The notes beneath the pieces are model-generated. The model saw nothing but the letters and a program-made list of their open reading frames with translations. It had not been told where the DNA came from and ran no database searches. A stretch of DNA of 64,000 nucleotides from Beroe forskalii (Eukaryota > Ctenophora > Nuda > Beroida > Beroidae): the NCBI GenBank assembly GCA_011033025.1, contig WFMF01000004.1, positions 1,116,001 to 1,180,000 of the forward strand, written 5' to 3'. The number at the start of each line of letters is the position of its first letter. Positions within the stretch are counted from its first letter, which is position 1. Below, one piece after another: positions 34,656 to 59,838 of this stretch. Both the position numbers and the translations under genes were made by a program.

Positions 34656-34661
34656 TATAGA

Positions 34662-34831
34662 ACTATTAACCGAAGTAGAGATTAGTAACATGATATATGT
34701 TGCGAGCGCAGCGAGCAACATATATATGCATTATTGTACGAGGCGAAGCCGAGTTCAATAATGATGTGTTTTGTACGAGGCGAAGCCGAGTTCAAAACTA
34801 GATGTTACTTATCTTTACTGAGGTTAATAGT
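34662..34831. mobile_element. Element K, 170-bp cloverleaf-forming inverted-repeat element
   Basis: The termini ACTATTAACC and GGTTAATAGT are complementary, and the following 20 bases pair at 16 of 20 positions. Inside are three hairpins: ATATATGTTGC/GCAACATATAT (34693-34703 with 34715-34725), CATTATTG/CAATAATG (34729-34736 with 34756-34763) and GTTTTG/CAAAAC (34768-34773 with 34793-34798). The last two have the identical 19-nt loop TACGAGGCGAAGCCGAGTT. GATATTATA flanks both sides, two bases away from the left end. No coding capacity. Confidence 0.8.
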
Positions 34832-35690
34832 GATATTATATGGCGAAACCACTCATTAAACGTAGTTAAAACATGGATAATAATGGTCTTTCGATGGGAG
34901 CTGCAGACTTCCGGAAGCAAGAGCCATCATGGTAATCTTATTCACAGGGCTGATTACATTTAGTTTTTAAAGTATTGAATACTCAAATATGCAGTACAGA
35001 ATTACGTAGTTACGCAGTTACAGGCCGAATCAAAATGAATTACCACGGATTATAGTTAGATAATTCGTTCATCTTCATGTGTTGAACCGGTAACTTAATG
35101 AAGCGATACACGTTTTCCCCTTCACCTGAACATCATAGTAATTCTTGAAATTCCATAAGAATTAGAGTGGGGTATCACATATAAGGCAGCTTGGTCGGTA
35201 CTTTCAATTTGCTACTTCTACGCATGATAATGACGCTATAAGAGTCTACCGCTAATTTGTTTGGCAGAAAGTTTTAACATTCTAATTGTGGTTCATGATT
35301 CATCTCGATTCTCGATTCTCGAGTACAGAGTCATGTCAAACCGTGATACCGGAAATAAATTGTAAGCCCGGATGAACAGTATGTGTTTCCATCGCCGTTT
35401 GCTATCATGGATTTCGTTAAGACTGATTTAGAGCAGCTAATTTTTTACTCCTCTGACTTTGAGAAGCTCTAATTGCTGTTGCGACGAATGTGATTATGCA
35501 GCCAAGATTAAGATTGTTTAATTGAAAAAAATTACTCTCAATGTCGTTGGGGTTATTCGGTCGATCTGGACTAATAACCCGTCTCAGGGACTCAATATAA
35601 AGGGTTATTAACCTGGTTCAGGTTAGTAACCCTTCAATACTACCATATACATGATAGCAAATAAGGGCTTGGGAGCCATATAATATATTT
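34832..35690. other. Unassigned sequence with a GGGTTATTAACCT hairpin
   Basis: Mostly single-copy-looking sequence without a recognisable gene. At 35602-35632 GGGTTATTAACCT pairs with AGGTTAGTAACCC (12 of 13), and a second GGGTTATT/AATAACCC pair spans 35546-35578. These may be the end of a further small inverted-repeat element. Confidence 0.5.
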
Positions 35691-35716
35691 TATTATTATT
35701 ATTATATCTTATTATA

Positions 35717-35806
35717 TCACCCTGTGACACTCGTTCGTCTAATATATACCCTGGCCAGTCTTTTTTATTACCGCGGGGGGTTACCGCCCTGGCCAGGGCG
35801 GGAATT
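35717..35806 (-). mobile_element. Element A dimer, GCG-subtype member
   Basis: It reads ATCACCCTGTGACACTC, then ACCCTGGCCAG, CCGCGGGGGGTTAC and the CCGCCCTGGCCAGGGCGG hairpin. Together with the next copy it forms an A dimer in reverse orientation, preserving the AGG-then-GCG order seen at 6.6 kb. Confidence 0.85.
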
Positions 35807-35814
35807 ATTATACT

Positions 35815-35904
35815 ATCACCCTGTGACACTCAAATCTCTAACTTATACCCCTGGCCAGTTTTTTTATTCCGCGGGGGGTTACCTCCCTGGCCAGGGAGGG
35901 AATT
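35815..35904 (-). mobile_element. Element A dimer, AGG-subtype member
   Basis: Nearly identical to the solitary copy at 31937-32025, ending in CCTCCCTGGCCAGGGAGGG. It is followed by an ATTATTATATATTATT tract and E10. Confidence 0.87.
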
Positions 35905-35929
35905 ATTATATATTATTATCACCACCAAA

Positions 35930-41164: not shown

Positions 41165-41525
41165 GTAATGTTGTATAATAGTCTCACGCACATTTAACAT
41201 AGCTCCTCTGCGAATTGCATCCCTTGATATCTAGCGTCTCTCACATACACTTTATAAGGATGCTAAATGAAAAACCCATCTATTACATGAGCTCTATTTG
41301 ATAAATCCGACACCGCATCAATGTTATATCTTCTCTACATCAACATCATATAAAATAGATCTTTGCTAATTCACATGCCTAGATATCATGCGTCTTCTTT
41401 GTATCCTCATGTATGTTATAGCCCCAAAGCCCCAAGATGAATATTATTCACAGTCATCCCCAAACCACAGCTACATATAACCTACGTGTTACAAATATGC
41501 GAAACACGTTCGACTATTATATTAC

Positions 41526-41702
41526 CTTTAGCGAAAGACCAGGAATTAACATATCTCTATTACATACGAATGAAATGAGTATGTAATAGGATATAAATAT
41601 TGAGTAGCTTGCTACGAAATATTTATATCTAATTTATCACGCGACACTCGAAGAGTGGAGCCGTGATAAATTTAGATATGTTATGAATGGCTTTCGCTAA
41701 AG
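41526..41702. other. Module X: 177-bp three-leaf cloverleaf
   Basis: Outer stem CTTTAGCGAAAG (41526-41537) with CTTTCGCTAAAG (41691-41702); second stem TAACATATCT (41547-41556) with AGATATGTTA (41674-41683). Inside are three hairpins separated by single bases: TATTACATAC/GTATGTAATA (41558-41567, 41579-41588), GATATAAATATT/AATATTTATATC (41590-41601, 41618-41629) topped by GTAGC-TT-GCTAC, and AATTTATCACG/CGTGATAAATT (41631-41641, 41662-41672) topped by CACTC-GAA-GAGTG. All stems are perfect. X' at 42049-42225 is the same structure inverted. Confidence 0.88.
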
Positions 41703-42048
41703 TAATATAATAGTCGAACGTGTTTCGCATATTTGTAACACGTAGGTTATATGTAGCTGTGGTTTGGGGATGACTGTGAATAATATTCATCTTGGGGCTA
41801 TAAATTACATGAGGATACAAAGAAGACGCATGATATCTTGGCATGTGAATTAGCAAAGATCTATTTAATATGATGTTGATGTAGAGAAGATATAACATTG
41901 ATGTGGTGTCGGATTTATCAAATAGAGCTCATGTAATAGATGGGTTTTTCATTTAGCATCCTTATAAAGTGTATGTGAGAGACGCTAGATATCAAGGGAT
42001 GTAATTCGCAGAGGAGCTATGTTAAATGTGCGTGAGACTATTATATTA

Positions 42049-42225
42049 CTTTAGCGAAAGCCATTCATAACATATCTAAATTTATCACGGCTCCACTCTT
42101 CGAGTGTCGCGTGATAAATTAGATATAAATATTTCGTAGCAAGCTACTCAATATTTATATCCTATTACATACTCATTTCATTCGTACGTAATAGAGATAT
42201 GTTAATTCCTGGTCTTTCGCTAAAG
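42049..42225. other. Module X' (inverted copy of the cloverleaf)
   Basis: Every stem listed for X is preserved. The only difference seen is CATAC to CGTAC in the base of the first hairpin of X, which changes one pair. It is bounded by the same CTTTAGCGAAAG/CTTTCGCTAAAG repeats. Confidence 0.86.
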
Positions 42226-43285
42226 TACATATCCACAGCCCTTCCCCACACACTTTACAGCTACATGTTATAGCGTACACACTACACAGTGGCCTGCGTG
42301 CATCAGTGTGTGAATCATGGAGTACATTGTATCAGTATAATAGTGATCGAGTAACGAGCTTTTGGACTGGGAACAAACACTGAAACAGTGAAACGTGCTT
42401 GATTTGAAAGCATGAAATTTGAAAATTGAAATACCTTATTTACTAGAGTAGCCAGGTAGGGTTGAGTGTGCATTTTCGACGGCGCTCGTTCTGAGGGTTG
42501 GAATGGCTTCGTATTGTGGATACAAACAAAGTTAGTGGGGATGCCTTAATTGTAAGTGTGGCGTTTGGCTCAAATTTGGCCAAAATCCAAATTTGGCTTT
42601 ACGCAAACTTTGAGTCAGGATATCTCAGCTTCCTTATGGAGTTGAGACAAAATGTTGGTGTTTAAAATGATCGCAATGGTCGAATTATGCCAGGCGGATG
42701 ATGGTTCCAAGACAATATGTAGAGCTTTACTTTTTGAGTTATTCACGATTTTGTTCATGCGCTGTAAGCACATTGGCCCAATAACCAAGAAATCTCCATC
42801 TTTCAACAGATAAAGTGATTTGCAATTGAATTTTCATCTTGAATAGACTTTCTACACGTCAGGTTGATCACCCTGGCCTCCTGTGATCGACATAAGGTCT
42901 ATCTATAACCTGTTAAGCCCCATATCACTCTAATTTCATCCTTGTACTATGCTATCGCATGGGTAAAACAAGCTTTTGATGGTATATTTGATGCATATAG
43001 GTACCATTGAATCCATCTTGCATTTTTTGATATCTGTCAACATACAAAGTGATTTGCAATTGAATTTTCACATGTCAGGTTGATGACCCTGGCCTCCTGT
43101 GATCGGATTAGGTCAATCTATAACCTTTTAAGCCCCATATATCTCCAATCTCATCCCAATTCTATGCAATTGCATGAGTAAAACCAACCTTTTGATGGTA
43201 GGTATTTTGGATGTATATAGATACTATTGAATCTGTCTTGCCAATTTTTTGATATGTTACTGTGTTGTCTACTGAGACTCAGTAT

Positions 43286-48374: not shown

Positions 48375-49113
48375 GACCCACACTTTGGACAGAAATTAAA
48401 CAACGACAGTAGCAATGGAATCGCCACAAAAGTCCAATGAAACATAGCTAAGAATGGATTTATATCGTGGCATACAACTTCATCCTCAGCCTCGTTGTCA
48501 TTCTCGCCCTCGGATTCTTCCCAGTCTGTTTCAACATCTTCATTTGCTCATTTGGATCTGATTCAGACGGATCATATTCAGAAGCTGAGTCCTGAGAGCT
48601 TTCATCCACTTCATTGATGAAGTCACAATCTACCTCGGCCTCAAGCTCAGAATCCCCTTCTGGAGATACTGTTGCTGACGGGAACTCAATAACTATATCA
48701 CTGCCAGAGATATTAGTAGAACTTTCATCACACGGAGGATTTGCTAAATGAACCTTCCTTTTTCGTGGCAGTCGAGAAGATGCTGTAGCTGATTGAGCAG
48801 GGTCAAGATACTCTCCAGTTTGTCGATCAGTACAAGGGATTGCGTCCTTTTTCAGACGTATCATGACCTTTTCCTTCCCAGGATTTTCTCTATATTTGGT
48901 GACATCAGTTTCCACAAAATCGCTATCATGAAAATGGTCTGAGCAAACTTTTGTATAATCGGATGGTTGCCAACCAAATTGACGCTTCATCCTCGAAACC
49001 CATCGTTTCCTTCTATCTGCATCTTTAGGGAGCTTGTAAAACCTTAGAAACCCACGATTTGGTAAGTTGCTTTTCTTATTTCGATGGCTTCTGTTTGAGC
49101 ATGATGCATAAGA
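48254..49113 (-). pseudogene. THAP-domain protein fragment, frameshifted (transposon- or host-derived)
   Basis: Minus-strand frame open from 49113 (in-frame stop TAA at 49114-49116). The N-terminus shows a THAP zinc finger: YASCSNRSHR, GFLRFYKLPKDADRRKRW and VCSDHF (the C-X2-H pair), followed by the AVPTIF-like LKKDAIPC. THAP domains bind DNA and occur in P-type transposases and host regulators. The first zinc cysteine region is interrupted by the stop. A Ser/Glu/Asp-rich stretch follows. Near 48545-48555 the acidic reading continues only in another frame, which runs to 48254 and contains FCPKCGS, a possible zinc-ribbon half. No RNase-H-like catalytic core is seen. An exon of a host gene cannot be excluded. 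Confidence 0.72.
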
Positions 49114-59082: not shown

Positions 59083-59838
59083 CCGGGTGCGTCATAATAA
59101 ACGTTACAAAAGTAACCTGTAACGCGCTGTAACTTTAGTTCTGATTGGAATTTTAGTTCTGATTGGAATTTGGGATGTCATAGGTATGTATCATACAATT
59201 TTGCACCAAAAATTTGAAGTGTCTACGTCAAAAAATGCCTGAGTTATCAACAAAAAACCGCGTTTTTGCCATATCTCAGATTCTGAGAGTCAAAAATGTT
59301 AGCTACTCCAGGATCATATTGTCCAGATATTGCCCGTAATATCCTGAAAGTTTCATCGTGATTGCTCAAAAAACCTTTTGAGATATGCACACTTTTGTAA
59401 CGCTAAAAAGTGTACATAAACCACAATTTAAGGGTACATTATGCAAGCTCGCTTAGTTTTACATGTCCAAATATGGAGATAAGCACGGTGTTTGTTTACA
59501 TTTTATCTGCGTATATATATACACTTTTTCGCGTTACAAAAATGCGCATATCTCAAAGGTTTTTGAGCAATTTTGATGAAACTTTCAGGATATTACGGGC
59601 AATATCTAGACAAAATGATCCTGGAGTAGCTAACATTTTTGACTCTCAGAAGCTGAGATATGGCAAAAACGCGATTTTTTGTTGATAACTCAGGCATTTT
59701 TTGACGTAGATACTTCAAATTTTTGGTGCAAAATTGTATGATACATACCTATGACATCCCAAAATTTCATCCAGAAATTCCAATAAGAACTAAAGTTACA
59801 GCGCGTTACTTTTGTAACGTTTATTATGACGTACCCGG
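59083..59838. mobile_element. Foldback element R (756 bp, TA target duplication)
   Basis: Arms of about 320 bp are inverted around a ~110-bp centre. The termini are CCGGGTGCGTCATAATAAAC on the left and, read inverted on the right, CCGGGTACGTCATAATAAAC. TA flanks both ends (59081-59082, 59839-59840). Internal paired blocks include GTAACGCGCTGTAAC, CAAAAATTTGAAG and CTACTCCAGGATCAT. Duplicated GTTCTGATTGGAATTT is present only on the left arm. No coding capacity. Confidence 0.85.

Follow-up and report, generated by a model that had tools for sequence, protein, structure and literature searches.

The window analysed here, a stretch of 64,000 nucleotides from the ctenophore Beroe forskalii, holds a three-leaf cloverleaf (X, 41526–41702, plus strand) and an inverted copy of it (X′, 42049–42225, minus strand). 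The locus raises the question of what kind of genetic entity carries such a structure, and whether it is the fold or the sequence that has been kept. A preliminary description, made from the letters alone, had drawn parallels with the ends of parvovirus genomes and the hairpin substrates of single-strand transposases.

X folds as a three-leaf cloverleaf

Folding of 41526–41702 with DNA parameters recovered the cloverleaf at −47.6 kcal/mol (z −13.3), a value equalled by 0 of 200 dinucleotide shuffles. The perfect 12-bp outer stem, the 10-bp inner stem and the three leaves seen by eye are borne out, and the outer stem continues for 3 further pairs beyond one unpaired base, with a 5 × 4 internal loop before the inner stem. 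The finer geometry needs correction. The leaves, first given as 10, 12 and 11 bp, have 11, 12 and 12 pairs in the energy minimum, where leaf 3 is bulged. Mini-stems do cap two of the leaves (4 bp in leaf 2, 5 bp in leaf 3), although at 50% G+C that of leaf 2 is not GC-rich as described, and the junctions, thought to be of a single base throughout, are of 0, 0, 1 and 1 bases. X′ keeps the stems, as had been stated, with one change relative to X (A39G) that converts an A-T pair into a G·T wobble. With RNA parameters the fold of X is as strong (z −13.35) as with DNA parameters.

X is the left terminus of a mobile element

The X cloverleaf forms the left end of a mobile, non-coding element some 524 bp long, which we call family X. 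In the reference copy the left edge lies between A and TGTAC, directly before the fold, and the right edge directly after GACTATTATA, with ~524 bp between them. Comparison of the fetched loci reveals that the flanks outside both edges are unrelated to each other, and the combination of shared sharp edges and unrelated flanks indicates that X is terminal and mobile. The fold is confined to one end of an ordinary copy; the body folds no better than shuffles (four folds from three stretches, z −0.6 to +0.9). An asymmetric inverted repeat pairs TATAATAGTC, just inside the fold, with GACTATTATA at the other end of the element. As the preliminary description had it, there is no coding region, in that no protein-coding frame of at least 200 aa was seen over the X element.

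X is not confined to one locus: the genome contains at least 42 near-complete matches with differing flanks (best 40 of 184 candidates scored). A 43-mer of X occurs at 99 genome places with up to 3 mismatches, 74 of them exact, and at 0 in the reversed control, and a 43-mer of the body at 130 places (77 exact). Searches of the first kind, which score the best candidates only, give counts that are lower bounds. The fetched loci contain 60 X places that are near-complete, and 40 of these are unchanged. The shared edges, unrelated flanks, 99 places of the 43-mer and 40 unchanged X places lead us to regard family X as a young, amplified, non-coding mobile element.

X is more conserved than the body, though modestly. 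Among 22 complete copies chosen by body similarity, X is changed at 22 of 3871 sites and the body at 105 of 7535, and among 21 complete copies chosen by X the counts are 3 of 3705 and 155 of 7139, each set being compared to one reference and all identities being biased upward by the fetching of copies by similarity. Much of the identity is explained by this picking of copies and by their youth. Paired changes across copies, named beforehand as the mark of selection on the fold, give a mixed result within family X and favour such selection between families (below). Independent decay of the stems, named as the contrary sign, is seen in part: substitutions break one or more pairs in 9 of 20 changed copies, and some other copies have indels, while two pairs have compensated double changes. 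Covariation within X alone is thin, with 2 pairs changed on both sides, a number reached by 30 of 500 shuffles; the 4 cells changed on both sides are reached by 1 of 500, and the covariation score likewise (alignment of 17 of the 20 changed copies, the three with a shortened X having been dropped).

Insertion sites and the window palindrome

The target of X is TA[T/A]A. Before TGTA, bases −1 to −4 are A in 57, T/A in 55, A in 51 and T in 46 of 57 left ends; two of the 57 lack TGTA itself, namely the inner element of the window, with TTAC on both sides, and one copy at locus L035. Any base may stand directly after the right end (T 28, G 11, A 10, C 10 on the X strand, n = 59). The right end of the element is TATA, and one motif thus lies upstream of both inferred nicks and of the target.

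Three empty sites could be reconstructed, and none has a target-site duplication or deletion. The first is a repeat around L017 that reads ACTCTA followed by CGCATATAG; L014 holds an element exactly between the two, as judged against L017 and L026. The second is the junction of X and body, GCTAAA followed by GTAAT, which is split in L069, and the third the element's own inner repeat, GACTATTATA followed by TTAC, which is split in L024. Insertion beside existing elements recurs: 8 of the 60 X places come directly after GACTATTATA, the family's own end, with 1 more where TTAC replaces TGTA; 3 of the 60 come directly after the end of a second family, R (GACTACTATA); and exact head-to-tail X pairs are found in L007 and L088.

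The same behaviour explains the striking palindrome of the window (41174–42229, 1056 bp), in which one X element has inserted into another of opposite orientation, at the end motif that the family itself carries. On the minus strand, element 1 has its outermost four bases, TGTA, at 42226–42229 (host A next, T on the plus strand, at 42230), its cloverleaf X′ at 42049–42225, and a body at 41174–41525 whose right end is at 41174 (GACTATTATA on the minus strand). Element 2, which interrupts it in plus-strand orientation (41526–42045), consists of X and a body (41703–42045) with GACTATTATA at 42036–42045, and is 520 bp long because the outer TGTA is missing. Element 2 sits directly after the inner GACTATTATA of element 1. 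Its flanks are atypical in that TTAC stands at either side, resembling a 4-base duplication. X and X′, taken at first for a module and its inverted copy, are instead the ends of two elements of the same family, one inside the other. The same inverted arrangement with a regular TGTA start is found in L006 and L024, and inverted dimers with X in the middle in the window, L006, L007 and L024.

Composites of the order X-X-body-body were observed in L064 and L069, and C332 and C1112 likewise have paired X places. The composites give the appearance of a nested pair moving together, and they may be copies of one event.

Families R and Y carry cloverleaves of other sequence

Family R, a sister of family X, is located beside several X copies and extends over 735 bp, from TGTACTTTAGAGG to GTGAGACTACTATA. 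Its outer ends and its inner motif TAGTCGAACG are those of X, its asymmetric inverted repeat is of the same kind, and a three-leaf cloverleaf (z −11.5) is present in the three copies read at the left end. We aligned by hand 26 pairs of X and R, from the outer stem and leaf 2, which were chosen for clear alignment and folding in both (leaves 1 and 3 being left out); 15 pairs are the same, 11 are changed on both sides and 0 are broken. In a permissive gapped alignment the interiors are identical at 97 of 142 positions, which beats 200 of 200 base shuffles and indicates that X and R are distant relatives.

Left-end motifs in the same direction lie 740 bp apart at C142:186900/187640 and 735 bp apart at C218:259120/259855, and these are probably head-to-tail R elements. 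At 59150–59800 the window has a long inverted repeat whose arms resemble part of family R.

A third cloverleaf, Y (34658–34842, plus strand), has three leaves of other sequence and is the left terminus of an abundant repeat family. It scores 21 bits from the X model and its fold has a z of −9.9. The genome search gave at least 40 strong matches (best 40 of 1388 candidates), 37 of which start at the left edge of the fold. The element probably extends over 34658–35677, a copy on contig C414 suggesting that it stops near GAGCC at 35677, and the terminal rules of Y rest on two insertions. A relative of Y on C414 folds in its own way (z −11.4). When the two are compared on the structure of one of them, both partners have changed in 13 of 64 pairs and 8 pairs are broken in the other copy, while slid controls give no more than 3 such double changes.

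On C414, a Y element interrupts leaf 1 of an X copy, with 8 repeated bases that are perhaps a duplication. In the window, repeats with CCCTGGCCAGGG palindromes (35715–35910) adjoin the Y insertion, and similar sites free of Y are present at 27–34 kb.

Loops and strand of the cloverleaves

The cloverleaves have their loops in common. All 14 of the 2 × 2 internal loops are GA/GA (X 2, R 4, Y 4, C414 relative 4) and all 9 triloops are C[GNA]G (X 1, R 2, Y 3, C414 relative 3), where R is represented by one copy and the four folds are partly dependent (Y and its relative; leaves 2 and 3 of Y are alike). For the background, the remainder of the window was cut into 546 pieces of 200 bases and both strands were folded, with simple repeats excluded; here GA/GA is found in 2 of 181 internal loops and C[GNA]G in 1 of 402 triloops. 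Leaf 1 of R has a GNNA loop. In the energy minimum of X the GNA tip is found only in leaf 3, leaf 2 ending in CTTG and leaf 1 in an 11-base loop, despite which leaf 1 has GA on both sides. Loops of the GNA and GNNA types confer very high stability on DNA mini-hairpins, with a melting temperature of 78 °C for GCGAAGC (PMC4686876). We propose that the GA/GA and C[GNA]G loops constitute a code of ultra-stable DNA mini-hairpins.

The complementary strand would read TC and TNC in place of these loops. In each of 6 sequences the strand on which X comes first gives the more stable fold, with an advantage of 1.2 to 8.1 kcal/mol; three of the six are R copies, and for X itself the difference is small (−47.6 against −46.4). 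Better folding and the target motif indicate the same strand.

A putative single-strand transposon

X looks built to fold as single-stranded DNA and points to a little-studied way of jumping. Of the two parallels drawn at the outset, the one with single-strand transposases and their hairpin substrates has the strongest support, in view of the terminal fold, the paired changes between families and the DNA-type loops. We favour as probable the reading in which X is the 5′ terminus of a putative non-autonomous single-stranded DNA transposon that uses a rolling-circle route (HUH-endonuclease, Helitron2-like), where Helitron2-like is a working term and does not imply membership of the Helitron2 group. 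A partner protein would nick the X-bearing strand at its 5′ end, between host TA[T/A]A and element TGTAC, and the first ~180 bases of the displaced strand would fold into the cloverleaf, the tandem G·A loops and GNA caps serving to mark and protect the strand end. A second nick after GACTATTATA would terminate transfer, and the strand would then enter a new TA[T/A]A site with no duplication of that site. Going by the established biology of HUH enzymes, a nicking enzyme of this type would require a single motif to precede the left end, the right end and the target alike, and X has such an arrangement.

More tentatively, and with the balance somewhat against it, X, R and Y might represent a superfamily of eukaryotic single-strand transposons not described before, with at least three families in one genome. 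Its ends would be defined by a conserved DNA cloverleaf of three leaves that is read by its shape, with tandem G·A joints and GNA caps as the code. We found no description of a cloverleaf, multibranched or GNA-loop terminus of this kind in the literature searched, outside which lie many subscription papers. To our knowledge, natural DNA folds of such complexity with evidence from paired changes are rare. If X is read by a transposase, it would be an example of a large, evolving, genome-borne architecture of single-stranded DNA in an animal-like genome. With their different leaves and common loop code, the three families would amount to natural mutants, and the open question of how eukaryotic rolling-circle elements mark their start would become testable.

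Known elements and alternative explanations

We compared X to elements and viruses with folded or single-stranded ends. IS200/IS605 elements are single-strand transposons of bacteria and archaea with simple hairpins near both ends. They resemble X in having a subterminal folded single strand and in that the target is kept intact and is read upstream of the left cleavage. An exact 21-mer of X has no match in prokaryote genomes, and the window composite has none in phages. Replitrons follow a eukaryotic HUH route, as proposed for X, and are described with direct terminal repeats of 5–11 bp and target duplications of 2–8 bp (PMC10741241); direct repeats and duplications of these kinds are not seen for X. 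Canonical Helitrons share with X the lack of a duplication, an A before the 5′ end and signs of rolling-circle movement. They differ in their ends (5′ TC and 3′ CTRR, against TGTAC and TATA), in inserting between A and T, where T is next in 28 of 59 X copies, and in the place of the fold, which in X is at the opposite, 5′ end if the polarity used here is right.

The closest known elements are Helentrons, HINEs and DINE-1 of the Helitron2 group, for which an asymmetric inverted repeat, a hairpin end, no duplication, an AT-rich target, self-insertion and tandem copies are described (PMC5148889, PMC4067079). All of these fit X, as does the lack of coding sequence, and X could be a true member of the group, a HINE moved by the genome's own Rep-helicase. 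Read on the other strand, the X element has TATAATAGTC at its 5′ end and the inverted copy before a 3′ hairpin, which is the group's asymmetric repeat and palindrome. We consider this membership possible and rather doubtful. The group's hairpin is a palindrome of 5–10 bp, whereas X has a three-leaf cloverleaf of ~180 nt with TA[T/A]A before it and the repeat far from the end. In mite HINEs the inner repeat lies 38–60 bp and the palindrome 8–35 bp from the end, against ~190 bp and a fold at the very end in X. Helentrons and HINEs insert between T and T; X does not, T on the other strand being no rule (A in 10 of 59 on the X strand), and conservation of the flank is confined to the X side.

Members of the Helitron2 group have termini in common with an element that encodes a Rep-helicase, which in Helentrons comes with an endonuclease. 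The genome does contain candidate enzymes for membership of this group, with 20 matches to PF14214 (Rep), two of them in open frames of more than 2800 aa, and 46 to PF05970 (PIF1). All 99 places of the X 43-mer are more than 10 kb from every one of the 20 PF14214 matches; the nearest, at 14 kb, is a fragment. Comparison by eye with the Rep and PIF1 coordinates gave no Rep-helicase gene between matching X-type ends among the matches listed, covering the right-end pattern (144 places, 4 in the reversed control) on contigs up to C648 and a left-end 14-mer (377 places, 16 in the reversed control) on contigs up to C239. Judging from these counts, X with its 99 places is probably a minority of the 377-place group that shares the left end.

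Several places have two X-type ends far apart, and pieces of two were read. As candidate long elements, C223 (L092) gave a piece without convincing coding sequence and the X copy on C359 a fragment. L093 (C256:249200–249800) and L094 (C359:767700–768150) have 87 bp of the X right end, another interior and a common outside flank; Rep/PIF1 matches lie 2.3 and 8.3 kb away on C256 and C359, and were rejected as partners since they are on opposite sides. GC-rich palindromic stretches of the CGGCCCGAAGGGCCG type were observed in or beside the X elements of L092 (C223) and L091 (C359).

The strength of the fold with RNA parameters (z −13.35), its 5′-terminal position and its abundance would also suit an RNA structure at the head of a SINE-like retroposon. 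This is improbable, as the window has 0 Rfam matches at the gathering score, the right ends compared have no A tail, the three empty sites are without duplication, and GNA and GA/GA loops are typical of stable DNA hairpins.

Parvovirus terminal repeats are viral multi-leaf hairpins present at both DNA ends. X shares the multi-leaf terminus, with three leaves and at one end, and the likeness noted in the preliminary description is thus retained in a weaker form. It is distinctly improbable that X is the hairpin telomere of a parvovirus-like or other hairpin-ended virus, with the inverted dimers that have X in the middle as replication forms. Ordinary copies are one-ended, the dimers are explained by insertion at the element's own inverted repeat, an exact 40-mer of X has no match in viral contigs, and no NS1 domain (PF01057) was found in the genome, in a search whose control was also silent.

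Finally, a cut-and-paste MITE or foldback element, with the fold as a by-product of nested inverted repeats, is very improbable despite the short inverted repeat TATAATAGTC/GACTATTATA, given repeats that are not at both termini, three empty sites without target-site duplication (the inner element of the window, with TTAC on both sides, being the exception) and paired changes that conserve the fold from X to R and from Y to its C414 relative.

Other features of the window

A loose scan of the window for multi-leaf folds gave 21 places, three of which are X, X′ and Y, and 28 rows in the reversed sequence, a poor control because it keeps palindromes. Three of the other 18 were folded, giving z −2.3 at 18.4 kb, −1.1 at 63.2 kb and −4.1 at 35.4 kb. 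The last, for which 0 of 200 shuffles are as good, is inside the Y element and is not a clean cloverleaf. An open frame at 48460–49113, whose content suggests an animal source, has relatives of which two of the three listed carry PF05485, which we take to be THAP.
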